Assembly: GCF_037975245.1 (NCBI RefSeq)
Contig: NC_092572.1
Span: 21,936,489-22,000,488, forward strand
Reading direction: 5' to 3'
Length of the DNA stretch: 64,000 nt
DNA from: Apostichopus japonicus
Taxonomy: Eukaryota > Echinodermata > Holothuroidea > Aspidochirotida > Stichopodidae
Positions 24,119-58,009 of the stretch are shown in pieces. The notes beneath the pieces are model-generated. The model was given only the letters and a program-made list of their open reading frames with translations. It did not search any database and was not told the DNA's origin. Every line of letters starts with the position of its first letter. Within the stretch, counting starts at the first letter, position 1. A program made the position numbers and the translations under genes.

Positions 24119-24241
24119 TTAAGGTTTGTTAAAAACTTCGTTTTGATCGCGTTGATGGCGTTGAACGCGTTGATCTTCGTCATCGGATTGGCTGTATTCT
24201 TCCTTTTTGTCTCGTTGAAACAATTCCAATACTAGATAACC
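24119..24241 (-). CDS. Gene C exon 14: charged C-terminal tail and stop
   Basis: 123-nt exon beginning [20 protein letters not shown] and running through a Gln/Arg/Asp-rich segment to a TAA at 24119..24121. Two tyrosines near the start are possible docking sites. A decayed homologue lies near 36021..36045. Confidence 0.75.
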   Translation of the reverse strand, partial: GYLVLELFQRDKKEEYSQSDDEDQRVQRHQRDQNEVFNKP

Positions 24242-27200
24242 CTACAAGATAAACCAACAAAAGATTTTTTTTAAATATTCCGTATTGTCTCTCCTTTCTC
24301 TGATATCGTATTCCGATCTTATTTCTTGCAAAGAATAACGTAAAATATGTTCATTGTAATTGTCTCGAAAATGCAGAAATGCTGAAACCAGACCCTTAAA
24401 GTAGTGTTCAATAAGAGGACTCTTTTCGGTTTATTTTTCTTTAAATCGGCCCTACTCAAGAGCTTTTCATTCGATTTTCATTTGTTCGATTTTCATTTGT
24501 TCATAAATTTCATAAATTCTTTACAGATATTTCGTTTTATTATATTCCTTACCTGATCATCCTCCATGATTGAGTCCATTTCTACAATGGTCATCCTCAT
24601 TGTAGGTCTTCTTGCTGGGTCTGTTGACCAACAGTCTAGCATCAGCTTATAGCTGCGGACACATTAAAATCACTTAAAGTAGACAAATCTGGCGATATAG
24701 ATTTAGTTATAGATATCCATAATAAAGATTTAAAACAGAACGAATGAATTATAGTGTTTGCATATATGGGTCTATGTTCAAAACATCCTGCAACAATATA
24801 TCATTTAATAGCATCATGAAAAACTAAGAAAATGGAGATAGTAACACAGAATAAACTCAACTAAATTCATGTGTAGTTTCCGTTATGACAAAGGTTTGAC
24901 CATGTTTTTTGGCACAACCCAAAAATGTCATAATCGTCAACGCAAATACTTCTCGTGTAACATATTACCTATTCGACCGTTCTTATATGTATTTGTTGAT
25001 AACTTACTATGGTTGAAGACAGTGATCTGGCCGAGGGAGGCGATAACCTGACAGTATAGCATCCATCACATCGTCATCAGACATAATAGGGTAAGGATGA
25101 CATCCTGGTGTTACAATGAAATTTCAAAAAAAAAAACAGATGAATTATAACCTTTATTTCTTTTCTTAAAGTACAATGTATTCAATATGGAAACAATTTA
25201 TGCTCCGTTGATATTTCGATTTATATAGCTAGTTTCATGCAAACTCATTACTCTGACAACATTGAGGTAACCATTGCGGCAAAAATATTGATCCGGTATC
25301 AATTGTTTTAACTTTCTTTATAATGTCCAATGAAGAAGAAGAAGACGTGATATCATGTCAAGTCATACCGAATGTGACTATTTCCCATAAGACGACTCCA
25401 AATGACCAAACATCAGTCGATTTGTTGTATTCCTGTTGTTTGAGAGTTTCTGGTGCAGCCCATCGAATTGGCGTTTCATTCTGAGGGATCAAACATACAA
25501 TATACGTCCAATGGCATGATGAATCTTAGGTACAGGTATGTCACTATATACTACTTCAGATGACTTCAATATTTTGTGAAATGCTCTCAAATGTCACTTT
25601 CATGAAATAATTTAAAGTAAATGAATTAAAGCTGCAATGGATAAACAACATTTCAAATGGAAATCGTTTATCGTGTCGTGTTACTGTGTTGTATTACTAA
25701 ATCCAAACGAAACACGCTTTTGATGAGCCTTTCTAGAAGCTGTTCGTCGTCGCATCTCGACGTATCCGATATAACGCCGATAACTCTGTTGCATCCAACT
25801 AAGTAAAACTTTGCGAAACTTTAACCAACGCAGGTTGATAATGTGGTGTATTCCTCATTATGTGTGGTGGTCGAAAAGGAGTGGTCATTTTATTAGAAGC
25901 AATAAGGAATCTAATTCACTATATGGTACCTACCAATAGAGTGTCTTCGGCACTTTCAGCCTCTGTATGTATGGCACGACTAAAGCCAGAAATTTTGCAG
26001 GTTAACTCGGTTCCAAGCAAAATATGACTTGCCGATAAATTCCTGTGGATAATCTAAAGATGAAAAAACAGCTTTGTCATTTAAAAATTGAATAAATGTA
26101 TTGTTTGACGATCATTCCAAATCATCCATTTATTAAACAAGACAAAGCCGTACTATCTGGACAGGACAATATTACAACAATACATTTAGAGCAATATATA
26201 ATATAACTAAGTACTGTATAAGCATGCTATATAGTGGGATATATTTGACATATTTTGGTTTGCGCAGAGAGGGAACGATACATGTAGGTGTCGGTTACTA
26301 AATACGTACGTTACATGAATGAAGATATTCCATTCCTTGGGCTATCTGCGTTCCAAAAGAAATTAAATCAAACTGGGTGATATCTTCTGACGACGCATGC
26401 CTAAAGTTTTCAGCAATGTATGGGCTGTCTTTCTTACTCAGTAGTGATTGTAAATACTCATGTAAGTCCCCGCTCGGTAAATACTCCATCACCAAGTAAA
26501 ACGGTTCTGCAATCAAGAAGTTAAGTTTAGTAAGAGCAATCAAACACTTTCACAACACCCATGTTAAATAAATTAAAAGCGTACAGTATTCGTCATTCAT
26601 TGCTTGATTCTATTTCACTCGTATTGATATTTTTTGGTTTCCATATTTCGAAAACTATCGATGCTAAACATATATTTCGCATACAATATGGTAATTATAA
26701 TTGAACCCAATTGACATGAGGACTTGATCGTAGTATTTACAACAGAGTACTCTGAAAGAAATGCAGTCGATGCTTTCATTAATCCAGAATTGAATAACTA
26801 TCATAAATTGAATCATTTCTGTTTTATTTAAAATTAAAAGAATTATATCGAATTCACGAATTCTACTGAATTTCGTCGAGTTATTACGTTTGGTTATTAA
26901 TTCCACCCATCGATATGTTTCGCAACCAGGTCACACTAGTTGTTGGCCACTCCCGAAGGTAGGATGATAAGAAAGTGAATTTGGCAGAACATGAATACAT
27001 TTTGCTATTCTTCGATTCAACCCTTGAATTTGTTAAATGGCAATCGATGCAAATGAAATACGATAATATGCATGATTCTGGTTTGATGAATTCATCGTTG
27101 TCGGATCTCATTCTACATGTGACGTTAAAATTTAAAAAAAAACTATAAGTGATCCTACAAGTAAACTAAATTTGAATTGACGCTACGTTAATTTAGCATA

Positions 27201-30200
27201 TTGAGGTTGAACGAATGCAATACCTGAATCCATGGAGCAGCCGAGCATCTCCACGATATTCCGATGTGGGTCCAGAACCTTGTAAATAGATAGCTCCTGC
27301 ATAAAAGCTGCCTTTTCAGTAGTTGTAATGTTGCCTTATGAGGAGATAGTAATGGGAATTACACTCAAAGTGATTTCAATTGGATGTATTTGAGAATTTT
27401 AAAGAGCTTTGTTATCTTCACAAACGAAAATGTTCATCCTGTTTCGATAATTCCGTGGTGTTTTGGTGGTTAAAAGACTACTTGTGGTTACCATATATTA
27501 GCTTGAAAGGAGGTTTGGCTAGACCTATATAGGTCTTAGGGTTACTTAAATGATATTACACGAAAATATTTTATTTTTTATTTAATATTGATATTTATTG
27601 TTTAATTCTCACGGTCAACAATCCCACTGATTGACATTAATACCGTAAAATCCAAGATGATACTACTATATACTAAGTCAATATTTGGTCCTCGTACTTT
27701 TCACATCTGGTTGCCTACTATATACTAAGTCAATATTTGGTCCTCGTCAATATTTTCATAATTAAAGCTTTCTGTTGTATTATTTACTTAAGTTGATATT
27801 TCATCCTTACTTGTCAACACTTTCACAGCTACAATTCTTCTCACATGGGATGCGTCGTTGTTAAATGTCCCTCTGTAGATCTTTGAGCGGGATCCACTTC
27901 CAATAGACTCACATAGTTGTAAGTTTTGTTTCATGTAATTAACCAATTCATTGTCATCCTCAATTAAAGATTTATTTGGAGAAGTTGATGAAAGTCTCGT
28001 TCTTTTTAAAGGTTGAATGTTGACCTGTGAAAAAAATTAATAAAGTACAATGCTTCAAAAAACATCTTTTACTTCTTAAAGATACCGAGCACGGGAAGAC
28101 ATTTGATGTCTTTGGATTTGAAAGATTTTCTTGAATCTTCATGAAATCTTGGGTACGGTAAAACGTTTCACAAGCAGGGCTTTCTTGTTATCAGATGGGG
28201 TGTAAAAAAAAAATAAATTTTCATTGCAACGTCTCTTAACGGTTCAAAACACCGGATATAACATGCATGGATTAGCACTTAATTATGGCTTACGGATATA
28301 ATTGATGCTCAATATTGTGCTTACAGAGCTTATGCATCAGGCTTACTTTGTAGGTGATGATATTTGTACTCATGTCCATCTACTTTTTAAAAGTTATATG
28401 ACAAAGATATCATGTAAAAGTAAGTGGCCTGACGTTTCGACCCTATCAGGATCTTCTTCAGAGTCTGAATGACAAGTAAGAGAAACTACAAGGGACAAAA
28501 TACAAGCACAGAAAACAGATAGATTAATGAGCATGCAGGGTGAACGCAAAAGAGGCTGATGAATGAGGATAAGTTGAGAAAGGGTGGAGAGAAGAAATAA
28601 AAGAGGGAAAATGAGAAGATTAAGGGAAGAGGGGATAAAGTTACAGAATGACAAAGTTAGGAAAGTGTGAAGATGACAGAGGGGGAACAAGGGGAGATGG
28701 GGGGGGGGGAGCAGAAGAAAGGTTAATCATGTCCTTCCTGAATGTGGAGCCATGAGATTGAATGGTCTGAAGGCGGTGCATCCACAGTCTCTCAGTGCTG
28801 AGTCGTACTAGGTCAGGACGGCTACATAAGTTGATGGGATTTGTTGGAGTTACGCATATTCTCATTTCTTACTGTAATCCTAATAGCACATGCCCCCGAT
28901 TTATCAGGTTTTTCAGCACAATCCAGTTTTAACTGTTGCACAAAGATTTAAGATTTACAGTAGTTACTGTAAGTTACTGTAATCTTACTGTAAATTACTG
29001 TAATCTCAGTGTGAATCGGTTGCGCTGGTACATATCAGTGATGATCTGTTTCATCTGCTGGAAGAAGTTATCTGGGATCAGAATCAAGAAGCGTGTAATT
29101 ATCACTGTTGGAGAGATGACGTATGGCTTTCCTGTAATTCTGTCCATCGAAACGTCAGGCCTACTTCCTTTTTGAATGATATATTTGTCATACAACTTTT
29201 AATAAGTTGATGGACATGAGTACAGGTATCATCACCTACAAAGTAAGCCTGTTGCATAAGCTCTGTCAGGCCTGCCTAACTGTTACACGTTCTCTTACAC
29301 AGGCTCTTTAGTAGATGCAGGTTGCTAACAGTTTTGTTTTATTTTGATTTAATTTTGACAAAGATATCAGTTTGAAACACATGTAGAAATAAGCATTGTG
29401 GCATTTACTTACCATCTGTTTTGCGTTGTAGTTCACACTTCTGTTCGACCTGCTAAGATGACATCGAATTAAAATAACAAAAAGGAAGAGAAACAGCAAT
29501 GTTCCAAACACACCAACGGTACCAGACACAATTTCACTAGCTAGATTCTCTTTGTGTCTCAATATTTCTGGATCTGCAATGAAGATACGCTCAGTTAGGT
29601 ATCTGGAGATGATGTAAAGCGTCTCAAGTTATTCAGTAGTTTTAACATGTTATATTCACTTCGAAATCAGCTTAAGTAGAAATGGAAATTTATTTCGTCA
29701 TTCTGACTTATTTATTACAACTTTTTACATTTTTTAATGTTGTATTTCTTTTACATGGTATCATTATTCTCATAAACCTTTCAACCAACGTGACACAGAC
29801 ACAATCACTACTTCAAATGTCTTGTATTCATGTTATTATGTAATTTTTACAAACGTAGTTACTTTATGTTTTATTATGTATTTCTTATTATTATCTTATA
29901 TAGCAACACAGTAGATTCAATGTAGTATTAAAAAAAGGTAAACAAATTTATAATAAAAACAAAAACTTGGTACCCACCCTTTTGTAAAGATATAATTTTA
30001 AATTTAATCCATACGCCGTTTATTAGATATAAATAATCGAAGAAAACGTAGAAAATATATTATAAACCTTTTGTAGATGATACTACTTCGTCTTTCTCAA
30101 GATTGATTGCAATGGTAAAGTTGCAATCTCTTGATTGGTGAGTAGAATCAGAACAGGTGCAAACCACCATATTTTCACCCTCGTGTAAAATGGACACAGT

Positions 30201-33200
30201 TGTGCATTCGGATGAAACGGTACCACCCTCTTCGCCATCTTGAGAGCACCGTGGAGGCATCCATGAGACGTCATCACTTGAGATAGGACGTGCTTTAGTT
30301 ATCACTTGTATGTCATTTGGACATGTCAGTGTATCTGGTATTTTAATTGCTCTTGTACTCGTTCTTGCAGTAGGCGTGATGAACACAGGGAGTGGTGGCA
30401 CTGGATGAATTGAAAATAAATGGTGTTTGATACAGTTCAACCTATTTCAAATTGAAAATTAATATAAAATCTTCCATCAGCTATGGATTTTACAACTTTT
30501 AATAGTCCACAAATACGGTTGTAAACACATTGCACCAGTCTCTGATTTAACCACCAAATAAAGTGTTAATTCGTTGCGTTTGAAGCGCAGAACATGTCTA
30601 GTTATCTTGACTAAATTATATTTGTTTCAGAAGTTGAGAAAATTGTTCTACAAAATGCAATAGCTACTAAAACAACAAAACAGTGCAATAAAGGTGCATT
30701 CTTATATACGTGGAAACAATTCTCTCCGTGAATGCACGAAGTAAATTTCCGTTCGGATCAGATTGCATCATAATAGCAGTAGTGAATGATGGTTGAAAAC
30801 TTACTCCTTAATTATGCAGGTGGTAACACCAGTAACAAAAATGATATCAAAATATCAACAACAAAAAGTGAAACGATTTTAACAGAGGAAGTGTACTTAC
30901 TACGACTTGTGCTTATATCAGATTGCTTTTATAAATAAAGAGATCAGATACAATTATTATTAAATATAAAATTTTACAAAAGAGACCTGCCAATGGTCGC
31001 ATAGAATGCTTACTAAGTATTTGGACTGAAAAGACACATGGGATTGACTTCAAGTTCTGTGAATCAGTACACTGACAAATCACGGTAGTCTCCCCTATTG
31101 AAGACCTACTCAGAGTAGCTGGTAAACAATTAGCCTTTATGTCACCGTCCTCTGGATCCGAACAATTCGGGGCCAACTGCGTCACGTCTACAGTTTTGAT
31201 CGGATTAATATTAAAGCTCTGTGATGGAGGACACACTGGAGGGCTTGGACCAATATTAATATGTTCTATGCGAAGAAAAAGTTCAAACCAAATGTTCATA
31301 ACATGTTTACGAGAGTTAGGCTCATGGTACTTGAGAGTACAGTTATATGCTTATTATGTTTATAATTTGAACTCATAGCAGGAGTGTCAATTGGTTTTAT
31401 TTATATTTTGTGGTTATCTAAAATAAACTTAATCAGCAACGGGAAAGTCCCTTACGACTTGGTTTGGTCCAACGTGTTCCTTTTACTTGGTTTGTGTTAT
31501 CTTTCACATATTATATGAATTATTGTATTATATATCCCTTTAAACTATGATACTTAAAGTGTCTGCCACTGCGTTGCAAACACGCAAGCCTGTACAAATG
31601 GTGCTTTAACAATGATACCGCAACTCATATTTTGTTTATCTTTCACACGTACGCAGATCTTTGAGAACAATTGCTTGTTAGATTTCAACTATCACCAGTT
31701 ATGCTGTCGCCGAGTGGATAAAGGCGGTGGCATTTGAAGCAAGGAGGCTTAGCAATCTGGAGGTTCGGGGTTCGATTACCAGCCGGGTAATAGTAAGGTG
31801 GGTTTTTCATCCAAAAGCAATCTACGGTTTTCCCATGACTTTCAAAATTGAAACCATTCCACATTTGTGGTCGCTTAAGCGTCGTAAAATAACTGCTAAT
31901 TATTATTAATATTATGATTATCATTATGTAGTCTGATAATTTATATTTACAGGTTTAATTCATCAGAAATGTATATTTAGTTATATCTCCTGCATCATAC
32001 TGACCATGCACGACAACAGAGAATACACAAAAGCTGCTGGTTTTTGCAGTATCCGTACATATACAGGTGACATTTGTTGCTCCTAGAGAGAAATAACTGT
32101 TTGGAGTAACGGAACAATTTGCTTGAAAGTTTCCATCTTCATCATCGACGCAGAGAGGGAGTTCCCAGTCGACCAACTGGGCATTTTCACCTTCTTCCAC
32201 TTCCACTGATATTGTTTCAGGACATGTGGGTGGATCTGGGGGTCGATCCTCTGAAAATGAAGAGATAGCAACTCATAGTTTTATGTTTGATGTGCAAAAC
32301 AACTTGAATTGCTGAAGATACATCAATAAATTTCGTAAGTAATGTCACGCCGGTCGCATTAAGCCGCCGTGCATTGGTTGCAGTCACTTTTCCCATTGTG
32401 CCAGAAGAGTTAGGCTTACGCAAGGACGACGTGAGTTTCATTGTATCTTGAATCTCTTCTTTCAAGTTTTATTTGATTCTCAAAACCAATGATATATCTC
32501 CATAAATGTGATGAGATCAAACTACACATTGAATGAAGATTAGTATTTATGAAACTCTAGATTAAGAAAATCATTCCTACCCCAAGTCGAAAGTTGATTG
32601 GGTGAGTGAATTCCGTCTTGGCGCATTAGAAGAGACCATTTTGGCCGAAAGTAACTACTTCAATGTTTAATTTAGATGCACTACAGAAAAACGCAATTTG
32701 GGAGATCTATACAACTGAAGCAATCTAAACGGGAAAGGAGTCAACTGTACATTCTGATCGCACGGCGTCAATAACGCAACGTATTGTGTCTGTAACGTAT
32801 TACCAAAGATCTGCGTCAATAGCGTAATATGTTCTAACTGCGTCAATAGCGTAACCTACAAGGTTTTATCCTTGTTTCAAAACGTTTTGTTTTTCTTTGT
32901 TCTAACGGTCAAACTTGATTCTTAGATTATGTTCCAAAGAAAGTACTCTTGTTACCAAATGTAACGTCTAGCCAGCGTTGAGCACGCGTTTCCAAATTGT
33001 CAGTACGTTAAGGTTTTCTATACCTGTAAACCCGACACCATGTTAGATTCATCCCATGTCGTTTGACTTGTCTATAGTATGCCTCATTAATGCTACGACA
33101 AAGGAGATTTGCCGTAATGCTGTCTCAATATAACGAAGACCAAGTATAGCGTATCAATAATAACTACACACCATCAGTCGTAGCACCTGCTATAGTCATA

Positions 33201-35391
33201 ATTGTAGTCATAAATACGATGGGCTACGCACAATGGATTTTCAAAGGATTTACAAAATCGCAAACACTGCAGAAAACCACAATTTACCTGCATTGATCCC
33301 TACAACGCATGCCTAAAATCGGTCTAAATGTGCTAATCCATACAATACGTTCAGTTCAACAGTGGAAGCGGTTTTGAAAAATTGGTTGACTCGTTTATTG
33401 TTATTATTACTATGTGTAATATAGAACTTGAATACATATAAATATGCGTACTCACTGAATGTTCAAGGAAAGCCACCAGCAACATATATGTATTTGCTCT
33501 ACTGGACGACCTGGTTTTATTTCGTCCAGGGAAGTTGTCTAAGGGGAGAAGTGAGCCTCCCGATAAAGAAGTTTTGGTAAAGTGGAGGGTGTTTAGATGT
33601 TATATTTTGCAACTTTTGGAACAATGTTGAGGAATGTTCGACTGTTTAGGTTGTAGAGCATATACATGTCGTACATTAATGTGCTTTGTTAATATTCTGT
33701 CTTCCAGTCGGGAGGGGGAGGGGGGCGTGGTCTGTGCTCACTCCCCTGGTTTTCTTCTAGGGGCTAAGGCCCCCCGCCCTGAATTATTCTTGACTGAGCA
33801 CCTGCATTTCTAAACACATACTCCTATATACGTTTGTGTATTGCATATACCTATATGAAAAAAGATGTCTCCAATAGGAACAAGTTTGTTAACCCAGCCT
33901 AGACCTATGAGGCCTACATGTTAAGTTATTTTATCTACTGATGGAATTTTTCTGAATTATCTTTAAACATGCATATAATTGGAACCTTTTAGTTTCCTTG
34001 TGTCCAACTTACCTTCAATAATCACAAGAAACGTACAAAAGCTCTGCCAACCTTCAGAATCCATGCACGTACAGGTAACAATATGAAATCCAATATCAAA
34101 CATTTTACCAGATGGCGGATTGCACTCGGCCATAAAATAGTTATCCTGGCGATCGAAACACATCGGGGTTGTCCAAGAAGTCGCCATAGCAACTGAACCA
34201 GTCGCTTTTTGCATCGTTATGGTGTCTGGACATTCTGGTGTAGACGGCTGGTTTTGTGCCACTATACGGAGTTAAAATGGACGATTATCACCTTATAGAA
34301 ATATGTAGCCTCACGTTAATATAATCACGCTTTATAAAAACCTTCAGTGTGGGCTAATTACAGTACTAACTAAAAACGAAAAAAAGAGAGCAAAATAAGC
34401 CATTATTGTAATGATTCATTTTCGCTACCTTTTTCATGGATTATGATGTTACGGTCTATAAACGTCTGGAAAACATATTTCAATGTTCTTAGTTATAAAA
34501 TGTGAACACCCATAGATTAGTGTAAGAATGCATGAACGCGAATTATGCCAGTCCTGTGCAGTTAAAAGACTGTATTTATTAATATTCTTAAAAATATGGG
34601 TATTTATGTATTAGGATACTATACTTACATTTGTAAACAGTACAATAAATATTATTGCTGAAAGATTATGTTCAAATGTTTAGGACGAGAGGCCTAACAA
34701 AAATGTTATAGATCGTAATGGATGTTGTTGTGTTATGATGAACACTAACAACAGTATGTTGGTCTATCTTGATGTAACCATGTTGTTATGATTCCATAAC
34801 AACTCCTTGTTGTAACCAATAAGGCTAAAACTGTACACAAACTAACAAAGCCATCCAAACATTGTCAAACGTCAATCAAATGGACGTTCTTCAAGTTTAC
34901 AACTTTCAACGAAGTATAAGTAAATAAAATAGTCAACAGAATGTTTGTGTATGCCAAATTTAAACTTCGATCTTTTACAAATCCTTTCGACATTGCAGCA
35001 AGAAATCAGGGTGCATCAAGCCGTTTCGAAAAACTGGATAATATTCTGATTACAGTAACTACATTATTAGTTATGTTGGTCATGGCTGACGAAAGTGACG
35101 AACTAGCATCGCATTCGCTGCATTGATACAATAACTGTACATTAACTTGCTTTGGTTATTGTTTATTAAGCAAATATATGTCTCGTATTCTCCTTTCGAT
35201 AGACCCTGATATGTCACGTTTCAACTCTTAAAGGTAATCAACTCATAAATAAGTTGAATGTGATGTTCATAACGCACTTACGAAGTCATTAGAAGTTAAT
35301 AATACACCATTCATTACCTCTCGATATTTACCAAGAACTTACCTGAATATGTGCTGCAAATGACCGCAATGAGAAGTTGCTTTAGCAACAT
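24119..35391 (-). CDS. Gene C: HYR-domain receptor with pseudokinase-type tyrosine kinase domain
   Basis: Fourteen exons give 787 codons plus stop: 35343..35391, 34013..34261, 32005..32250, 31014..31265, 30068..30400, 29413..29573, 27811..28024, 27224..27334, 26310..26506, 25934..26053, 25369..25480, 25008..25104, 24553..24652, 24119..24241. Order: signal peptide (1-16), four HYR domains (about 20-370), TM (about 393-413), juxtamembrane region, kinase fold (about 465-747), acidic/basic tail. The ATP-binding parts look intact (G-loop near 472, Lys498, Glu515). The catalytic Asp of HRD is Asn609, the loop Asn is His614, and DFG is Gly627-Phe-Ser. HYR domains are adhesion modules related to the Ig fold. 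The protein is therefore probably a surface receptor whose kinase domain may bind nucleotide but is predicted inactive. No transcript support. Confidence 0.85.
24553..24652 (-). CDS. Gene C exon 13: kinase helices H and I
   Basis: 100-nt exon encoding [20 protein letters not shown], the LMxxCWxxDPxxRP signature that closes a tyrosine-kinase domain, then [12 protein letters not shown]. Phase 2 to 0. Confidence 0.9.
25008..25104 (-). CDS. Gene C exon 12: kinase helix G
   Basis: 97-nt exon with [20 protein letters not shown] and YRLPRPDHC, matching the G-x-x-PYP...LxxGxRLxxPxxC block of tyrosine kinases. Leaves at phase 2 with a GTAAGT donor. Confidence 0.85.
25369..25480 (-). CDS. Gene C exon 11: P+1 loop, APE motif and helix F
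   Basis: 112-nt exon with [10 protein letters not shown] and [18 protein letters not shown], both highly conserved tyrosine-kinase signatures. The structural parts of the fold are preserved while the chemistry residues in exon 10 are lost. Confidence 0.9.
25934..26053 (-). CDS. Gene C exon 10: degenerate catalytic loop and DFG site
   Basis: 120-nt phase 0-0 exon reading [13 protein letters not shown] and [11 protein letters not shown]. It aligns with the canonical HRDLAARN and DFG elements. The catalytic Asp is Asn609, the Mg-binding Asn is His614, and the DFG Asp is Gly627. The exon and its splice sites are otherwise intact. Confidence 0.9.
26310..26506 (-). CDS. Gene C exon 9: kinase hinge and helix E
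   Basis: 197-nt exon with [17 protein letters not shown] (hinge and helix D), a short insert containing [11 protein letters not shown], and [16 protein letters not shown] (helix E). This is the normal receptor-tyrosine-kinase arrangement and leaves at phase 0. Confidence 0.85.
27224..27334 (-). CDS. Gene C exon 8: kinase helix C
   Basis: 111-nt phase 1-1 exon: [20 protein letters not shown] then EMLGCSMD. Glu515 is the expected salt-bridge partner of Lys498, and HRNIVEMLG is the standard HPNIVxLLG strand 4 region. Confidence 0.85.
27811..28024 (-). CDS. Gene C exon 7: juxtamembrane region, glycine loop and VAVK lysine
   Basis: 214-nt exon. The kinase start is visible as [17 protein letters not shown], a GxGxxx glycine loop with Ser/Lys where Phe/Gly-Val is usual, then [10 protein letters not shown] with the ATP-anchoring Lys498. 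This half of the nucleotide site is therefore conserved. Confidence 0.85.
28324..29265. mobile_element. Non-autonomous element with ~118-bp inverted ends
   Basis: 28324..28442 and the reverse complement of 29149..29265 agree closely, sharing CAGAGCTTATGCA, GGCTTACTTTGTAGGTGAT and GGCCTGACGTTTCGA. The interior is purine-rich and has no plausible transposase. It lies in the gene C intron between exons 6 and 7. Confidence 0.7.
29413..29573 (-). CDS. Gene C exon 6: transmembrane and stop-transfer region
   Basis: 161-nt exon entering at phase 1 and leaving at phase 0. It encodes [19 protein letters not shown] followed by [18 protein letters not shown], a single-pass helix with a basic cytoplasmic flank. 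Confidence 0.85.
30068..30400 (-). CDS. Gene C exon 5: HYR domain 4 with long linker
   Basis: 333-nt phase 1-1 exon. A Pro/Thr-rich linker of about 30 residues (for example [13 protein letters not shown]) precedes a HYR core with [26 protein letters not shown] and CNFTIAINL. The donor GTTTAT is weak; the boundary is set by phase and by the lack of a better in-frame donor. Confidence 0.75.
31014..31265 (-). CDS. Gene C exon 4: HYR domain 3
   Basis: 252-nt phase 1-1 exon with [34 protein letters not shown] and PCVFSVQIL. The EDGDIKANC segment is the usual acidic HYR loop. Confidence 0.85.
31702..31925 (+). mobile_element. tRNA-derived SINE in a gene C intron
   Basis: A Pol III A-box-like GTCGCCGAGTGGATAAAGG and B-box GGTTCGATTACC, with long-variable-arm spacing, suggest a tRNA-Leu/Ser-type head. 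The tail contains ACATTTGTGGTCGCTTAAGC and ends in ATT repeats. It lies between HYR exons 3 and 4 of the gene. Confidence 0.75.
32005..32250 (-). CDS. Gene C exon 3: HYR domain 2
   Basis: 246-nt phase 1-1 exon with TCPETISV, the acidic [25 protein letters not shown] and [10 protein letters not shown]. The donor GTCAGT is slightly off consensus. Together with domain 1 this is the clearest HYR match in the window. Confidence 0.85.
34013..34261 (-). CDS. Gene C exon 2: HYR domain 1
   Basis: 249-nt phase 1-1 exon. It has the HYR pattern ECPDTI, a central [22 protein letters not shown] and a closing [10 protein letters not shown]. The four cysteines and the G-x-x-x-V-T-C-x-C-x-D core match the hyalin-repeat family. 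Confidence 0.85.
35343..35391 (-). CDS. Gene C exon 1: start codon and signal peptide
   Basis: ATG at 35389..35391 opens [16 protein letters not shown], a compact signal peptide, ending phase 1 at a GTAAGT donor. Phase and position fit the HYR exon that follows. Confidence 0.75.
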
Positions 35392-35989: not shown

Positions 35990-37830
35990 ATTCGAACTAC
36001 CGTGGGTGTCGTGAAAATATTTCCAACACCAGATAACCCTGTAAATATAAAACATGTATAAATCTTAACAGAAGTATTTTCCTCTTCCCCTTTATATCAT
36101 TTATATTATGTAATTTACCAAAAAAAATACTTAAGACTATCCTTTTACCCATTAAAATAACTGCAATTTTAATAATTCAAAGGCATAATTCTTTGTGATA
36201 ATTTAAGAATCTTTTCTACCGTATATTTTTTCATAAGTCACAATTGTTGAAGACAGTACATCTGGCCGAGAGGACGACGATATAACCTTACGGTATGGCG
36301 TCCATGATATATAACTTCAGCTACCAAAGGATTGATTTGATCTCGCATGCAGCTTCCATGGAACTCCTTAGCATTGGAATTTAACTGCTGCACAAGTATG
36401 CCACTATACTTACTTCAGTTGACTTTAACAATAGTTGGTATTTTGAAAAACACTGTCAAGTATTACTTTCATTTAGGCTTGACTTTATAGACACTTTTCG
36501 AATAGAAATCGACAATCGTGTCCATGTCAATAATGTCTTTTGTCCAAAATGGAAGTCAGTGTTGTTAAGGGGTAGTATGAGCTGTTCGTTGGTGGCAATT
36601 GGATATTAGCCTTTTGGCGGGTATTCATCGAAACGTTTACAAACATCTCCAACTCTACAGGTTAACACATGCCTATATAATATAGTCCTGGGCGTTAAGG
36701 AGAAATAATGTGATCTGATACAATTGCGCACATAACGCGTCTTTTATAAATGCTCTACCCACCTTTGGGCATTTATCAGCAATGCCAACATCTGTATGTA
36801 CGGCACAACTAAAACCAGAAAGTGTGGAGATTAAATCGGCTCCAAGTAAGATATTACCTATATTATTCGATAAATGCATGTGGGGAATCTGCATGAGAAC
36901 AGGAATAAACATACTTGGTAATTAATAAGCGGGTAAAATAAATTATTCTATCAATGGATGTTTGTTAGTTATACCAACTCAGCACATTTACAAAACAATG
37001 TGGTAATGCACATTTAAACCATCCCAAGAAGTCAAGGGTTATTGCCTAAGCGTAATTGTTTATTAGTTGGGATTTTACTTCAATTTTTTGTGTTCGATGT
37101 TTTCAACACTATCTTTAACAAGGAATACTCCTTTGAACATACTCAACATGCCAGCTTCCCCACCCACACCAAACCTCCCTATCCCATCAAACAATTGTTC
37201 CATAAGGTTAGTTTCACTTTAACATATATTTGCAACAGACAAATGTACAAAATCAGTCGACGCTTTCACTTATCCCCAATCACAACCTCCAGGGAATCAT
37301 GTATTTAAATATTAAAGTAATAAAGAATCAAGGTTTAATTCTACTGAATATCTTTGTTGGTTACCTAGGAAATAGGTGTTACAATGAAGTGCCCCTTTGT
37401 GGGGAAAAAATATTCGATAAGCTTGATAACCACTCAATGTTAGCAGTTCACCACACACATACAGTACATAGCAGTGAATTTAAAGTACGAGAACCCATTC
37501 TATCATCTTTTATCCAAATTGTAATTCATTTAATGACAATCCATGCAATTAAATAAAATTCTGAACACGCATTCTGTTATGGCTTAATATCTTTTTGCAC
37601 ATGACATAGAAACACTATCCGTGGTCTTCATGTTGTTTCTGCAAATGAACTCTTGGATTTCATCAAATATGAACTGAAGCTACTTTAATTTAGCATAGCG
37701 ATGCTGAAGGAATACAGTACCTGACATGCAGTAGCTAAGCACGTTGTGCTGGTCCAGAGACTTGTGATTGGATAGCTCTTCTATAGATACTGACTGTTCA
37801 TAAGCTGTAATGCTGCCATAAGATATAACT
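35990..37830 (-). pseudogene. Decayed copies of gene C kinase exons
   Basis: Minus-strand remnants appear in the same order as gene C. About 36021..36045 matches the tail exon start (shared CCAGATAACCCT-like stretch). About 36240..36310 matches the helix-G exon (TTGAAGACAGT, CTGGCCGAG). About 36745..36895 matches the catalytic-loop exon, with NILLGADL and TLSGFSCAVHT still readable. About 37690..37820 matches the helix-C exon. The copies of exons 7, 9, 11 and 13 were not recognised, and the remaining pieces carry indels. The GFS in place of DFG is shared with gene C, so it was present before this duplication. Confidence 0.7.
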
Positions 37831-38429
37831 ACATACGACATACTTGTATAACTATTTACAATTGTATAATCCATTGTATATTTGAGTACCGTACTTTCAA
37901 GAGCTTAATTGTAGTCCTATTTACAAACTACGATTTCCCTATGTTTAAATCATGTAGAGAATATTGAGCAGCAAATTATAATTAATACTTAGGTATATGG
38001 CCTGGCTGTGGTTGATACATAAATCCCAAACAAGTGGTCTCATCGAAGCTTGTCGGGGATTATCGTCGGGGAATATCGAGGATTGTCGGTGTACCGTCCC
38101 TCTGTCTGCGTCTGCTTCTTTGCAGTGGGCGAGTTGTGGATGAGAGGGTCTGGGTGTGGCCCGTCTGTCTCTCCGGGGGTTGGTGGAGCGATTATCCGTT
38201 GGCTGCGGTTGTTCTCGTGGCGGAACTTTTATATGAGTTACGGACGTTCGTTACATTCATAATGCACAACTGTACGTTCTTGTCATAAGACTGAGGTACA
38301 CGGATCTCTCCACAAGTTGGTGCGATAATTCCATAAAAGGCATTAAGTCAAACATCTCTCCTGATAGCACTTGACGATTGTCTCAACCCAGTATATATCT
38401 TTAACTTAAATATCAAAATTAGTGCATTG

Positions 38430-43407: not shown

Positions 43408-43525
43408 CTAGTGTTTTTTCGTTGCCATGAAGGTTTCTATGGTTCTTTCTAAGTATTCATTAAGCTCATCGAAGCTTAAACGAGATTGTTGATCCCACTG
43501 CCAGCAAAGTGACATTGCTTCATAC
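43408..43525 (-). CDS. Gene B1 exon 13: kinase C-terminus and stop
   Basis: 118-nt exon with [20 protein letters not shown], equivalent to the LMxxCWxxDPxxRP signature but with DQQSR for DPxxRP, then ETFMATKKH and a TAG at 43408..43410. The last ~45 nt differ strongly from B2. Confidence 0.85.
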
Positions 43526-46500
43526 CTATAAATAGAAATAGAACTGTTTTATTCAGATCATTTTTAGGTAATTGAAGATAATGTCTCAACAATGTTTTAA
43601 GAACGGATGTTACTTGTCAAAGGTCAACACCTGCTTAGACAAATAACACAATATCAAATGCAGTTATTAAGACAATCGTATTGCAAGTAGACCCAGAGCC
43701 AGAAGAGCTCACTTCGCCATTGTAAGAGCTCTCTCTTGAATCTCTTGATCCACTCTCCTGGAAGAGAAGCCCAAGAGAAATGATAAACGTCAACTTGCCA
43801 TCCCAATCTACTTCCCCTTTGCCAAGTTACTAACAACTATCATCACATCCAGCCCACCTACTATCGTCTTCAAAGAGCAATACCTGATAAGCGGACCATT
43901 GCGTACATATGCCCCTGTAACCCTGCGGGACTTGCTAGTTCGTGCTGCTCTACCTTTTTAACTCCACCATCGTCCACGCCTACTTCCAAATGTTCTCTAC
44001 CCTCCGGTTGCATTGTCTGCGAGGTCCACATTTCGGGATCGGATTCTTTCACCAGTCACACCACCCATCACACGCACACAAAGCAAAGGATTACACAACT
44101 TGCACTACCTCTAATGTCATTTACCTTATTTCGTGAGTCTGCATTATTCAGTGCGAAGGTGAGACCAGGGTTACTCCTACATTTGACCAAAGATCCACAG
44201 TCAACACTTTGAAGATTTTAACTCCAGTTGGACGATATTTCAACCCTTTTAACCACACTATATCGGATATGATCTTTCAAGGCATTCCATTTAACCACAC
44301 AGTCACAGTTCGCCTCACAAAGAACGTTTGTGGATCCACGGCATTCGAACCATTCAACCACATGGGCTCAACATCCAAGAAGGAAACTACGAAATTACCC
44401 CCCCCTCCTTCCCCCTCCAGCCTCTCTTTTCTATCCACATTCACAGGTCTTCCTTCCTAATCCCCTTTCCTTACTTTTCACCCCATTACTTATTACCTCC
44501 TAGTGTTAAACCCCTGCTTCCTTTCATCTTTCCTCTCCTTTCTGAGTCTTTTTCTGATCTATTCGTTGCTTTTTTTGTCCAAATTTACTTATCTTTTCAT
44601 CTGTGCATGTTTATATGTTCTTATTTTATTTTCGTGTCAGTTAGCCTCTGAAGAAGTTCCTGTTAGCATCGAAACGCCATGCCCTCACACGTTTCATAAT
44701 GAATCAAATAAGTATGCTTTGCTACAACTATGTTCAATTTGTCCATGAACGAACAAGAGGTGGTGCAAACGTGTTAGCATGTCAATCTCATTTACGGGAT
44801 CATGTATCATATGTATTGTGTATAACAACTTGAATTCGTTTTTCTTTGTCACTGTACCGCTGTGTTAAAGTTTATTCATCACAAATTCTTAACAGTACAT
44901 ACAAAATTACTTTTTCTCGGTAGCTGTATGGACATGTACATCCGCTCCCACCCCACGTAGAATTTAAATTTAAACAACACAATATTGAAGTATTCCATGC
45001 AAACAACCATAGGTTTGTGAAATTCATAAAACTAGTTAGTAGTGTAAATTAAAGGATGTTTATAAAAGAATGCTGCTGAAACGTTTTAACTTACAATTGT
45101 CCAGGGCAATTAGCAGGTCTTGTTAATTTTCCTAAAACGTCTGTTGATCTTTGTATTTCTTTGTATTCCGGTATTTTTGCACCTAGAAATTAACAAGAAA
45201 AACACAATGGTTTATAGAGTAATGTGTTAGAACTAACGCCCCAACATCCATATTGAGGCAACGCAATAACCAGGGATGTATTGATCAGTTGTAAACATTT
45301 GGATAATTAAACTATTAAGTAAAATAACTTTAAAAAAGTTACTAGAAATGTTACTTTTTGTTAGAATCGAGTTCTCGACTCGATGAGAAAAGATTACTTA
45401 CATTAATCACACTAAAAAGAACTTTTTCGTGGTATATCCTAAAGCTTGATCAGATAATAGTTTTCAAGCTTCAAGATCATATCAATACAGCAATAGAATT
45501 GATTTGATAAAGCAATGAGCAAAAACATCTATTTAGAAACGGTTGATAATTATATTTCCCAATTGCAGTAAGGTCTTTATGAGATGCCTAAAAGTTAGGG
45601 AACATAATGCTTTCAGAAAACGTAATTATTGTGTAGAAAACATATCTCTCAGAATAAGCTTAAGACCGTTTCTTAAGCGTCAATATGACAATCGTGCAGT
45701 TGCGAGGGGAGCATGACAAATAAGGGAACCACTCACGTTTCTTTATTCATGATTCTATTTTGTTATATCAGGTTTCATCATACTTCGCGTTCAGATTTCG
45801 AAGATGTCTCGTATTAAATATTTAACCGTTACAAATTTCAAGGCGGAAGCCACAGCGAAAAACAGATAGACTATCAGTATATGATGGTTTTTGCCATAAA
45901 ATGGAGTTTCTGTTATATTTACGTCCCATTGTTTACAGCAAACTGAGAAAATAGAATTAATGAACAACTTGAAGAGGTAAATGAACTTGAAATCATCGGA
46001 CGGATTGTAAAATGATCTAAATAATATTTGAATACTTCTAGATGAATAAAGCAGAAACTCAATAACATACCATACGAAAATATTTCCCATAGGACGACTC
46101 CTACAGCCCAAATATCACTCTGCTGTGTATATTCTCCTTTTCGCTTTGCTTCCGGTGGGATATTCAACCGAAGATCCCCATTATTCTAAAATGAGAGAGG
46201 GCGTTCATTAAAAAAGAAAACACTATAAATAGATATCACATATTTACGGTGTCCTTGGATCACTAAGTAAATCATTAAGACCAAGACCGTGAATTAGAAC
46301 CTTCAAACACTGTAATATAGACTACGCACTTATATCATTAATAAGGCATGCCCCAAGTCGACTCTGAATTTATATGCCATATATAGTTATATATCATGTC
46401 AAGCAACAAGAATTTTGGTGGGTTTGCCATGCAAGCTTAGGCCACGAATAATGACAAATGCAGTGGCTTACCTTTTCCAGTTCTTCTTTTACTCTATCTC

Positions 46501-49500
46501 CTGAAGACGTTACGTAACAAAAGTCATGTAGTTTACAAGAAAGGCCAGAGTGTCCAGATTGAGATATCAGTAACTTCTCGGTACTTAATCCGGGATGTAG
46601 CCACTGGAAGATTTATGGAAAACAAGCATCCAGCAACTCAAAAAATGACAAATGGTCTAAGCTTTCTAAATGAAATTATCACATAATGTCACATACTAAT
46701 CAATGCAGGCCACATAAGGTAAAGCCCATTTATGTTTTGTCAAATTGAGCATACATTGTTTGGATACTGTTAACATTAACATATCATACTGTAACTTGTT
46801 TATCATACAATATCACAGTAACTTAAAATTTAACCAGTTGCCCTACGTAGTTCATCCAGATTTAATTCTGTGTTACCAACTACTGTATTTTGATAGATTA
46901 CTTCACCAGATACTCGACACTTTTATTTTAACCCCGATATATCGCTACTATTGGGCATGTCAATGAGTCTTGGGGAGTTCACCAATACCTTTTAAACCTG
47001 TCAGACTATTATGAAATGTCCTCTACAAAATCAAGATAGAGACGAGACGTATGTGGTATATGTTCATAAGTTTTATGTTTACAATGTATATGTCAACCAT
47101 CACATCGACCTTCCTGATTCGTCTATAAATAAATGTTTGAATTTGTTCGAAATTTTAGGACAATGAATTCACATTAACAATTAAATAAGCTTAGCCAAAA
47201 AATGTAGGCCATCTTACGCAATAAGCAAGACTATCTTACACAATATTGATGAAGAAACTTCATGCCGTTGATAACGTTTGATGCAAAAGTCAAAAAGTGA
47301 TGTGGTACCGGCTCTAATGCATTCCCGTGAAAACGACTTTTTCCAAAATTAACTTCAAGATGAGATTTGAGAGTTCCAAAAGCCATATATTCTTGCAAAC
47401 AGTATGAAATACCTGCAACAAAACATTTTTTACGAAAAGTGACATCAAAGTTTGCTTACACAATTTCAAACATTGAAACACTTTTGACTATATTACTTTG
47501 CAAGGATTTTTTTCTAAAATTACCTCGCACCACATCAAAACATTTGATGTTAAGTACTCAACCTTTAAAGTTTACGGATAGTATAACACTGGAAGACATT
47601 TTGCGAACGACGTTACGGTATCATCAGGCATTATTAACATTGATTATATTTAACTGCTAAATCAGTGATGATATAGTTTATTCTCACCTGACATCTGAAC
47701 AATTCCAAATGTTTCGACAACATTTTCGTTTATGGGGAGGATGGCAATGTGTCGAAGAAAGTATTTCCATTCCTCAGAAGCTATTGTAGCATCTGTGAAA
47801 GAAAAATATCAAATGCCAAACAGATGATTGCAATTTTTAACTAAAAAAACAATCCTCCCTCAAATGTAATTAAAAGCATTTAACCCTATATAAATACAAG
47901 TTCTACATTACAAATATATCAATATATCTATGCGTTTACGAGTGTGTGTTACGTTTCACGGAATAAATAATAATAATAATAATCTACATTTATTATTATT
48001 TTTACGACGTTTAAACGACCACAAATGTGGCTTATGGATAACAACTTCCAATTCAACAGTTATTACTCAAATTTGGAATGTTTTCAATAAATAAAGTCAT
48101 TTCAGATAGGAAAACCGCAGATTGCCCTTGGAGGAAAACTCCATTTTACGGTCTGGTTTCGAACCCGGAACCTCCCGATTGCTAAGCCTCATTGATGCAT
48201 TCGGCCACAGCACCCGTCAATGAAGACAGTTAATCTGAACGACTTTACAATTTTCCATTTTCAAAACTTATAAATTTCCCCCAGTTGACAAAATCTTTTA
48301 TTGCCTGTGTGTGCTTTCTTCGTAAAACAGAATGTATTATATAATTTGGTATCTCGCAATCCATATTTTGAGTTATGTAGCGTTAAATGACATGAATGAA
48401 TCCCACGACGTACCTGTTTTTCTCCTCATATGTGTGTAAGTTTCAGCAGCAGTGCCTTTATGTAATATCCCAAGCCAACGCTCTCGCATCATGTCCTTGT
48501 TCAGCTGTACAACAAAAGCCACATCTTTTCTGTCGAATTCCCTAAGCTTTTGTGTTTCCGAATCAGTTTCTTCTTCATCTATGCTTAAATACAGGTCTGG
48601 ATTTTAATGGAAATTAATTTGATAGAGACGAAACAGTTCTCATCAATCGTAGAACAAAATGTAAAGAAATAATAATATTCGAAAATTGGTCGGAAGTGGA
48701 AGACAGCTGCTTACGACGCTAACCAGCCACAAATGCACAAGAAACGTGTTCCTTAAGTTCATATTGAATATTATCGGGATTAAGACAATATCCTAAGGAA
48801 TAAGTCCATGACAGTTGCCAGTCTGTGGCACAGACCAGACTCGAATCCATTCTCTATGGACTAGGTATTGGGTTCGAACACAAGTTGGCTTATAGACTGG
48901 ACGTATCGCGGACTCAGGGACCCCAAAGATTGGACTTCAGAGTTCTGGCGAGTCATAAATTGCTTATGTCCCCTCCATTTCAAGGTTCTTTGGCATAATC
49001 TATAGAGTGGCTGCATAGGCTATATAGATACGATTTATACAGATAGATATATCTATGCATAACAGCATGACTGTACATTAGGCTGTAATGAACAACATTC
49101 TCAAAAAACATATATCCTAAGCCCACTACGAACTTCTAAAGGAAGCAATACCAGCTGTGTACTGTTCATTCCTTAAAAGTCAGATCAAAAGGTGTTGTTA
49201 TTGCTGATGTGTCAAGATAGATTGTTCCAGAATTACAGTACTGTTTGAGAATTAGTTGAGTATACTTATATATAGTATAGCAGGTTTTTGAAATTTCAAA
49301 GACTAGTTAGAACCAATATTTCATAAGAAATAAACAACACCAATATGTTGCATTTGGACTAGAGGTATTTTGCCCTTTTTTATACATTATATCCTTCTGT
49401 ACCCTGTTTCTGTAAGAAACGTTTGGATAGACTAGCAATTTGAAATAATGTGTTATCACTTGATCATACGAGGTAAACGGTTTGGCTTTGCCAAGCTTGG

Positions 49501-52500
49501 GCATGCATCAAAACGACCGAAAAAGTGTGGTTAACGTTGAATGTGTAGAGTACTTTAATATAGCTGTTAAAGGTCACGAGGCTCATGTACTTCAAACAAG
49601 ATGAGCCTAAACTTGTGGGAGGAGATCTGCAACTCCATGGATTTCCTACTTGTGTTTCTTTTTCTCCATTCTAGTTTTGTTGCTCTAACGTTATGTTTGT
49701 TAGACCGTGCTGAAATTGGCTGCAATTTGAAAACGGCTTCTCACCAATTTCAGACCGACTTTGGTAGTTCACTGGGGTGTGAACCCGAAATACAGTCTCA
49801 ATAAAACTATACCATACATCATAAGAACAGAATCGAACATATGATCAAACGTACCAAGATAATTTTTGGTGACATTGGTGTCAACAGGCGTAAGTACAAA
49901 ATCTTGGGTTTGGAGAGCGTCTCGTCTGTTTGAAAAAGAGTTGAACAAAATATATTTACTCTAAATATGCCAATGAAAGAGAGACAATACTATTGGTGTA
50001 TAGTTTAAAATCATGGTTACACTAAGCTCTTGAATACTACGTCTACCTAATGGCGTTTATGCCAATGTCTACTTCGTGTGCATTTGGTGGCATACTATAT
50101 GTATATTCAGCGAGAGCGCCGATATCACCTCTCTCAGGAAAGTTGCCGAAAGGCAACATGAGAACATTTTTTCGATTTGTTATCAATCAGAGTCTTGTAT
50201 TTTCTAGCTTTGATATTACGTAATATGAAAGGAAATACATGTTGTGTAAAAAGTTGGGGAAATTTATCCAACGCAGATCACTTTAAGGCTTCCAAGAAAA
50301 AAGCAGCGTTTACTGATGAATAAAGATGCTTGTTTTCTAAAACGTTTGGCCCTCGTAATTACAATGAATTGAGATGCCATGAGTTATCGACCTGTCACAT
50401 AGTTATCCAGCTAGGTGTAGGGTTGAGCTAGTAAGAACTTCTACAAGGGCACAATGATCACATCAATTTGACTGCTTACTGTTTAATTCAATGCAGAAAT
50501 TCAGACTTTTTCATTATGACGGACATTTTAGTCATCTTTCGCTCATAATCATTCTTAAGCAAATATTGAATGTTTACTCTATTTTTGTGTGTTTACTGAC
50601 ATACTGGCATAAAATGCTATGGAAAAGAGATACCTTAAAATGACATAACTGATTAAAATATTAAAAGAGAGGCAATGAAAAAATAATAACATTAAATATT
50701 TAATTACCGTACTGACCTTAGGCTAGAGTACCGTGGAAAACATCTTTCTGCAAAAAAAAGAAATTTATGAGTTTACTTGAAGAAAAGTTGTGACTGTAAT
50801 CACGAGTGTAATGGCTTAAACTTGACTGAGATGTAAAAATCCTCAAACCAAGGTGTCCATTAAAAATGTTGTTTATGAGTTGGTAAATAAGTTGAATGCA
50901 TGTAATTGTTAATTATGATTAAATGAAAGAATATAGAGTTGTAACGAGATATAAGAATGGAGAGGGATACATTGAATTATTCCGGAATATCCCAATCTAT
51001 TTGCAGCTACAATGTGGCGAATACTGCAAAACGTTTAGGCTTCACTTTCAGTAAGAAGTCAAGTCTAGTGCATTCGGCTCTGCAACCTATCACCGTTTGC
51101 TTGAGACCAAGACTGAAAACAGCAGAGATGTGTTACAGACGTGTCGTTTGATATGTTGGCATTACTTGGCTTAAATGTATAAAAAGCACAGCCCTGCTTT
51201 TGTTAAAGTTTACTTTACAGTTAAATAAATTTAGTTTATCGCGATTGGACACAGACTAATGTTTTACCTACGAAGTGTCCAGGAAGCTGGAAAATTTCCG
51301 GATACTGAAAAGGCCCATACAAAATCGTCGTAACAATATATCAACCCGTACTTGAAATGAGCTAATAAATAACTAAAAGCACTGTTTTATACGTTGGATT
51401 GTATCAAACATATTTGAAATGTTAACTATTCAATTGTGTACAAGGAAGTACTGTCAAGTGCAAGTCGAAACAAAAAGGCATTAAAACTATTATTAATAGG
51501 GATACTTGCTTTGAGTTGACCTGGTGACTATGACAGCAAGAATAAAGGTAGCAAACACTGCCAAGGCGTAAATCATCCAGGAATTATCACTTCGAGATAT
51601 CGACGTGTTTACTGTCACACAAAAAAACATCGCCAAATTCATATCAGTTGTGCCATTAACGGAAATAAAGTAATATCCGCAGGCCAAATTAATATAAGAA
51701 ATGAAATATATGCGAACTAAAGTCACGCATAACCCATAACATGAATAAAATGTTTGATTGGTAGATTGTTCACAATATGAAGAATAAAATTAGTTAGGTC
51801 ATGAATCTTATGTTCCAGATAAGTAAGGATATATGAACTACGGTCAATTGAGAAATGCGTCTTAAAATTGGGTTTAACATAGGAGACGAAGATACCACAA
51901 AATTCTTCAGAAAAGACAAAATGGCTACACAACAAACAACAGACGTTTATCACGTGATACCCTTTACTTACTTTCCTTTTCTACACTGACGATACTGCTT
52001 ACGTCAATATTATCGAGGGCGTTGTTAGCTGTACACCTGTACATTCCATTGACGTGGTTGTCTTTACTTGGCAACTGGAATTCCCACAATTGAGTTGTAA
52101 GGTTCGACTTGTTCAGAGGCTTTAAGTCAATTATTTTCCATTCAAACATATCATCCAATTTCTGAAGGAAAACATCCGGTGTTGGATTACCCTCCACCAT
52201 GCAGATAACCAGCAGGATATCTGCATCATTCGCAACATTTATGATAGATGAAGTAACCATTTGGACGGTAGCCGGAACTGTTAAAGGAAAAAAAAAACGA
52301 ACGGTGGTATTTTCCTTGTGCTATAAGTATCATTTTAATGAGCTAAATGACCAATGTCAATTTGGAAAAGGATATAATGTTTTGCGTTAAGTTAGCCAAC
52401 AAAAATCACAAGGAAGTAAACTACTAATTATTCCACAAAAGTGCCGAAACTACAATTAGTTAATGACAAATACGAACAGTTGACTCTGTCGAGTTCTATG

Positions 52501-57858: not shown

Positions 57859-58009
57859 TACTTTACTTGTATTCTTAGTTTTACATCGCACCTGTTGGTT
57901 TCTCATTACCATGTAAGTCTCTGTCGTGCTTTGTAGATATTCGTTAAGCTCATCGAAGCTTAAACGAGATTGTTGATCCCACTGCCAGCAAAGTGACATT
58001 GCTTCATAC
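57748..58009 (-). CDS. Gene B2 last exon with retroposon-derived tail
   Basis: 262-nt exon starting [20 protein letters not shown], then [20 protein letters not shown], after which the frame enters the antisense strand of the U2-like retroposon at 57858 and ends at a TGA at 57748..57750. The retroposon-derived part is Lys/Gln/Ser-rich and ends IGTVTV. Confidence 0.75.

Follow-up and report, generated by a model that had tools for sequence, protein, structure and literature searches.

A predicted sea cucumber receptor that joins HYR modules to a kinase domain without its catalytic residues

We analyzed a 64,000-nucleotide stretch of the genome of the sea cucumber Apostichopus japonicus (contig NC_092572.1, here C12, positions 21936489-22000488; this whole stretch is referred to below as the window), together with the assembly to which it belongs (671,581,487 bases in 35 contigs). 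A minus-strand gene in the window, denoted gene C, is predicted to encode a signal peptide, four HYR-type exons, a transmembrane exon, a tyrosine-kinase domain and a short tail, and its kinase domain lacks the catalytic aspartate and both metal-binding residues, the sequence feature by which it is classed as a receptor pseudokinase. With moderate confidence, we read gene C as an intact single-pass HYR receptor whose kinase-like domain would have kept its fold, dispensed with catalysis and taken on the role of a non-catalytic partner or scaffold.

Gene model and loss of the catalytic residues

The predicted model of gene C comprises 787 codons in 14 exons running from position 35391 to 24119, with no internal stops, GT-AG borders in all 13 introns and exon phases that match throughout (Table 1). 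The kinase domain is recognized by Pfam as PF07714 (E 1.4e-74, residues 465-734) and is also matched by PF00069. HYR is found in the protein at E 1.1e-19, with two of the four HYR-type exons passing singly; all four are of phase 1-1 and carry six cysteines each, and the weaker exons were classed as HYR from these phases, their size and the six cysteines. Beyond PF07714, PF00069 and HYR, no Pfam family was detected at E <= 0.001. The transmembrane exon leads from phase 1 to phase 0 into the kinase exons, and the last exon adds 40 residues. Among the best 60 of 2390 matches to solved kinases, the nearest by sequence are EGFR (as a two-domain construct), PDGFRA and FGFR1, a set of top matches that leaves the kinase class of gene C unfixed. 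The HYR exons of gene C are not represented among the best 150 of 1534 HYR candidates in the genome. Long arrays of mutually similar HYR exons, many with equal scores, were seen at C2:11.76-11.80 Mb and at C3:10.39-10.41, 21.3-21.4 and 25.8-26.0 Mb.

Table 1. Features of gene C and its neighbors in the window (positions counted from the first base of the window)
Feature	Positions	Strand	Basis or remark
Gene C exon 1: start codon and signal-peptide-like segment	35343..35391	-	GT donor; hydrophobic start by eye
Gene C exon 2: HYR1	34013..34261	-	Pfam HYR, residues 22-97
Gene C exon 3: HYR2	32005..32250	-	matched by HYR domain of locus L010, E 9.3e-9
Gene C exon 4: HYR3-type, six Cys	31014..31265	-	phases, size, cysteines
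Gene C exon 5: HYR4-type, six Cys	30068..30400	-	phases, size, cysteines
Gene C exon 6: putative transmembrane segment	29413..29573	-	by eye
Gene C exon 7: juxtamembrane, glycine loop, Lys498	27811..28024	-	gene model
Gene C exon 8: alpha-C helix, Glu515	27224..27334	-	gene model
Gene C exon 9: hinge and upper C lobe	26310..26506	-	gene model
Gene C exon 10: dead catalytic loop HRNLSASH and GFS	25934..26053	-	120 bases, AG acceptor, GT donor
Gene C exon 11: APE, DVWSFG	25369..25480	-	gene model
Gene C exon 12	25008..25104	-	gene model
Gene C exon 13: DCW, RRP	24553..24652	-	gene model
Gene C exon 14: tail GYLVLELF, stop	24119..24241	-	gene model
Decayed kinase copy adjoining gene C: remnants of exons 8, 10 (SGFS), 12 and 14	36000..37904	-	outer limits set by open frames
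Gene B: immunoglobulin-type ectodomain, transmembrane segment, HP...K...DFC pseudokinase	43411..54144	-	5' end provisional
Gene A: kinase exons, near copy of gene B	57895..62667	-	span of matched exons

Consistent in strand, phase and splice sites, the HYR, transmembrane and kinase exons appear to form one predicted gene. The alternative is a pair of genes, one for a secreted HYR protein and the other for a separate kinase, and it draws some strength from the derivation of the model solely from genomic DNA and from a 950-base inverted-repeat element in the intron between the transmembrane and kinase exons. We nevertheless regard a pair as very improbable, given the shared strand, the matching phases, the transmembrane exon between the two parts, the single start and single stop segment, and the recurrence of the order HYR, transmembrane segment, pseudokinase at C12:13.42 Mb. 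The inverted-repeat element itself (28320-29269) has 100-base arms that match at 90%, and its tail resembles, by eye, repeats near 44.6 kb of the window and in the locus at C12:13.42 Mb.

The residues that matter for catalysis map to VAVKVL at 495-500 (Lys498), FMQELSIY at 512-519 (Glu515), HRNLSASH at 607-614 and GFS at 627-629. Compared with the canonical sequences, HRNLSASH takes the place of HRDLAARN, replacing the catalytic Asp with Asn and the loop Asn with His, and GFS takes the place of DFG, whereas Lys498 and Glu515 are kept and the glycine loop is kept in part. A preliminary description of the window had singled out the interval 25934-26053 on account of these replacements and of the two retained residues, and had proposed that no phosphate would be transferred. 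The interval proves to be exactly one exon of gene C, exon 10, and the replacements, like Lys498 and Glu515, are confirmed in the full model. Because the catalytic Asp, the loop Asn and the DFG Asp are all gone, the predicted loss of phosphotransfer is well supported at the sequence level.

As a reference for the extent of the loss, we used 36 alignment columns that are invariant (identical in at least six of seven) among intact tyrosine kinases of the same genome, namely, RTK1 and RTK2, the relatives described below, and five others that are ROR-, MET-, Eph-, Src- and ALK-like (labels assigned by eye). Gene C keeps 25 of the 36. Its losses affect 9 of 13 invariant columns within the range 150-182, which was picked after the losses had been seen, compared with 2 of 23 elsewhere (Fisher p 3.1e-4), and therefore fall for the most part in the catalytic and activation loops; among them are the activation-loop Tyr column and the two metal ligands. 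Random loss of catalysis, which we also considered, is countered by this clustering. A different possibility is that gene C is a decoy or adhesion receptor in which only the HYR ectodomain matters, the dead kinase being a tolerated cytoplasmic stub or a dominant-negative dimer partner. The disappearance of the activation-loop Tyr column and of both metal ligands would fit such a role, as would the tail, which reads YLVL in gene C and YLNM after RTK2; a stub should decay evenly, however, and 21 of the 23 invariant columns outside 150-182 are preserved. We consider a decoy or adhesion receptor unlikely, though it is the alternative to which we give the most weight.

The preliminary description had also allowed for nucleotide binding. 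The Lys498-Glu515 pair is still in place, but with both metal-binding residues gone, metal-dependent nucleotide binding is unlikely, and any nucleotide binding by gene C should be weak or metal-free. The receptor HER3 (ERBB3), which has the same Asp-to-Asn replacement in HRD, holds ATP with one magnesium through the loop Asn and the DFG Asp and weakly trans-autophosphorylates in vitro (PMC4718504). That precedent, along with the retention of Lys498, Glu515 and part of the glycine loop, could be taken to mean that gene C is an atypical kinase with residual activity. We give this little credence, as the two residues that hold magnesium in HER3 are replaced by His and Gly in gene C.

A decayed copy and the intact relatives

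Next to gene C lies a relic of a related kinase that is 69-79% identical to it across four alignable stretches; the exon 12 remnant is a match in DNA only, and that of exon 14, a 1-bit match, was accepted by eye. The exon 10 remnant reads LSGFS and has GFS in common with gene C, so that, by parsimony, GFS is older than the duplication, and the death of the kinase likely predates the split between gene C and the relic. On the assumption that this is so and that the relic has diverged about neutrally, we simulated neutral drift of the whole of gene C over its half of the divergence from the relic. At 0.1, 0.15 and 0.19 changes per site, 9-15 stops are expected and none is observed, and at each of the three distances all 2000 simulated copies acquired a stop.

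Gene C is, to judge from its open frame beside a decayed copy, likely a retained receptor pseudokinase. Several points weigh against this view: at 0.05 changes per site, 0.5% of whole-gene copies remain open; for the kinase part alone, 3.6-6.2 stops are expected, and the share of copies that escape them is 2.7% at 0.1, 0.2% at 0.15 and 0.25% at 0.19; the simulation depends on the two assumptions just given; and gene conversion could weaken the argument further. The opposite reading, that gene C is itself decaying and will soon be a pseudogene, would sit well with the already decayed adjoining copy and with the three broken catalytic motifs. Given 787 codons without a stop, no bad intron border and losses that are clustered, we think there is scant chance that it is correct.

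A search of the genome with the kinase domain of gene C (best 131 of 574 candidates scored) identified, as the closest intact multi-exon kinases among those examined, the tandem pair RTK1 and RTK2 at C12:22.443-22.4628 Mb, 0.5 Mb away. These are 40% and 42% identical to gene C, respectively, and differ from it in having intact loops (HRDLAARN in RTK1, HRDLASRN in RTK2) and an intact DFG; EGF modules are encoded upstream of RTK1. Introns 7/8 to 12/13 occupy the same positions in the same phases in gene C, RTK1, RTK2, gene B and L010 (the locus at C12:13.42 Mb), with AG/GT borders in all five genes save for one GC donor in L010. In a partial control, a single open frame spans the 10/11 border in kinase loci L055, L056 and L058, but L004 and L005 break there too, and the 10/11 border alone is therefore not specific. 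One of these control loci, L058 (C18:8.747 Mb), has the loop HGDLAARN, in which the Arg of HRD is replaced and the Asp retained.

The GYL tail exon is present in gene C, after RTK2 and, as a weak remnant, in the relic; none was found for RTK1 in a search of its locus (L001), and none was seen in L010 or gene B, both of which end in exon 13. A genome search with exon 10 (all five candidates scored) matched, besides gene C itself, the relic (42%), RTK1 and a further kinase, each of these three at E > 0.2; the four matches include no pseudokinase of the HP type described in the next section, and no second intact copy of the HRNLSASH/GFS loop was found, although weak matches can be missed by such a search.

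In a tree of 15 kinases, support of 88/96 joins gene C and the pair RTK1 and RTK2 with six HP-type pseudokinases, which form a group of their own at 100/98, but the tree carries a long-branch warning and only 2 of its 12 inner branches are strongly supported, which adds to the points against our reading. In the best tree, gene C falls outside the HP-type clade, and neither constraint is rejected by the approximately unbiased test, whether gene C is placed with the HP type (p-AU 0.351) or with RTK1 and RTK2 (p-AU 0.413).

HP-type pseudokinases and a second predicted HYR receptor

The preliminary description had called the loop of gene C a second kind of dead loop, and this is borne out by genes A and B of the window, which have HPGLSTEK...HDFC instead. 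Their kinase exons (57895-62667 and 43411-48549, both on the minus strand) are 87-99% identical, with a nonsynonymous to synonymous substitution ratio (dN/dS) of 0.35 (dN 0.044, dS 0.127), calculated from ungapped exon matches with split codons dropped; because of this ratio, the dead kinase domain of the two genes looks constrained. The gene B ectodomain includes a V-set immunoglobulin (Ig) domain (E 9.4e-11) and a weaker Ig match (0.0011) below the Pfam cut-off, and its middle exon has no Pfam match. Further matches occur at C12:21.88, 21.93, 22.01 and 22.03 Mb.

Genes A and B belong to a clade with the signature HP-x(5)-K...CKLYDF(N/C/W). We surveyed the loop in 40 fetched loci, nearly all chosen as matches to pseudokinase or gene C queries; it was uncovered or not fully readable in five (L019, L029, L039, L040 and L041), and 37 loops were read: 34 in the survey, that of L047 separately, and those of genes A and B. 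In this sample, the HR position reads HP in 36 loops and HL in one (L015), never HRD. The loop Asn is replaced by Lys in 35 of the 37, the others having Asn (L044) or Arg (L045; both at C12:23.02-23.03 Mb). The Asp of DFG is kept in 34 and the Gly in none.

Across the genome, a 41-residue loop query yielded 150 matches at E <= 0.018 (the best 150 of 247 candidates), 14 of which were read in letters. All but two of the 150 lack internal stops, weak evidence given how short these frames are, and by a hand count about three-quarters lie on C12 and C16, with more on C1, C4, C11, C20 and other contigs. The pattern CKLYDF occurs at 154 sites, compared with 14 for the reversed control. The intact pattern HRDLAxRN is found at 34 sites (reversed control, 0), none of which overlaps by position with the 150 matches, and which are a floor for intact kinases, as variants such as HGDLAARN are missed. 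The approximately 150 HP-type matches thus outnumber the 34 intact loops more than fourfold, but they are exons rather than proven genes, and the two counts come from different methods.

One member of this clade appears to share the layout of gene C. At C12:13.403-13.427 Mb (L010), HYR exons are followed on the same strand by a transmembrane exon and kinase exons, with Pfam matches to the kinase (E 2.5e-45) and to HYR (E 2.5e-7); the last three HYR exons are nearly alike. Its loop exon reads CDHPGLSAGKVLLDANNNCKLYDFN, and in the alignment the glycine loop and the VAIK lysine are lost as well. By its predicted sequence, L010 encodes another HYR receptor, with an HP-type kinase that is dead in a different way from that of gene C, although the gene model is partial, with an uncertain join at the juxtamembrane region and upstream HYR exons that may span more than one gene. 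When 9-16 kb on the 3' side of HYR loci (L008-L009, L010 and L011) was searched, a kinase was found in one of the three, and conversely, a profile built from the gene C HYR exons detected no HYR in the roughly 9.5 kb on the 5' side of each of four further HP-type kinases (L048-L051). Open frames from two of these four gave Ig-like matches in Pfam, one of three frames passing the cut-off (C2-set, L049).

HP-type pseudokinases thus resemble gene C in receptor layout and in intron positions (checked for L010 and gene B), and L010 also in HYR. Membership of gene C in the clade is disfavored by its loop, HRNLSASH...CKISGFS, by its 14th exon and by low identity (23-24% to L010, gene A and gene B, 25-30% to three others), even though the tree test does not reject it.

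Proposed function and wider meaning

The combination of HYR modules and a tyrosine kinase is rare, as the preliminary description had stated. That description knew of no named family with it, but one exists: the choanoflagellate RTKC family, where the kinase is active. RTKC8 of Monosiga brevicollis shares with gene C the four HYR modules outside, the single transmembrane segment and the tyrosine kinase inside, but is active, Eph-like and 2031 amino acids long, with Cys-rich domains and a CAP-Gly tail (PMC10263333). Gene C, by contrast, has 787 amino acids and a dead kinase, and Pfam finds in it neither Cys-rich domains nor CAP-Gly; the likeness described here is one of architecture. In the parts of the literature covered, HYR together with receptor kinases led to the RTKC family and to an Eph paper that cites HYR for a bacterial protein. 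Among the matches listed from the open-access literature, we saw neither an animal HYR receptor kinase nor an expansion of receptor pseudokinases in echinoderms.

HER3 offers a functional parallel, as a receptor that works through partners (PMC4718504). From this analogy and the preserved fold, we infer that the gene C pseudokinase may be a partner or scaffold, and all that goes beyond a retained receptor with a dead kinase is inference of this kind. The HYR ectodomain, as its architecture suggests, could sense a ligand of the matrix or cell surface, or a partner. The pseudokinase would transfer no phosphate and would most probably serve an active tyrosine kinase as scaffold or allosteric partner. 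Foremost among the candidates for that kinase would be the nearest intact relatives, RTK1, with EGF modules outside, and RTK2, and such partners may phosphorylate tyrosines of gene C, for instance, that in the tail GYLVL. The parallel is incomplete: HER3 has lost the alpha-C Glu while keeping the loop Asn and the DFG Asp, the opposite of what is seen in gene C, and in the extracellular part of gene C Pfam finds only HYR, no ErbB ectodomain. That the partner model is borrowed from a protein that keeps these two residues belongs with the points against our reading listed above.

The 2017 genome paper on A. japonicus reported the tyrosine-protein kinase receptor among expanded families and tied that expansion to signal recognition and the nervous system (PMC5638244), and the expansion is stated again in a 2026 preprint on Holothuria glaberrima (PMC13228809). 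A term search of the main text of PMC5638244 found no 'pseudokinase', 'hyalin' or 'HYR', and the titles and opening lines of abstracts of papers naming both pseudokinases and sea cucumbers report no receptor-type pseudokinases in sea cucumbers. Tentatively, and at somewhat less than even odds in our judgment, dead tyrosine kinases have become the basis of a large receptor repertoire in the sea cucumber, with Ig-like and, in one case read, HYR ectodomains, to which gene C would be a separate entry, and the reported expansion would largely be a pseudokinase recognition system.

If this is true, gene C came to the design separately, having lost catalysis along a path of its own and bearing its own HYR ectodomain, and the system perhaps serves the recognition of microbes or of self, or tissue repair. 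Counts of receptor pseudokinases, where made, are low, with eight suggested among the 58 human receptor tyrosine kinases (PMC4718504), and here one animal seems to carry many: the dead loops in its genome are of two kinds, and related modules bear either HYR or Ig-like ectodomains. Such a system would make it testable how a signaling enzyme turns into a non-catalytic receptor part, and the reported expansion of tyrosine-kinase receptors in sea cucumbers calls for re-reading in this light.
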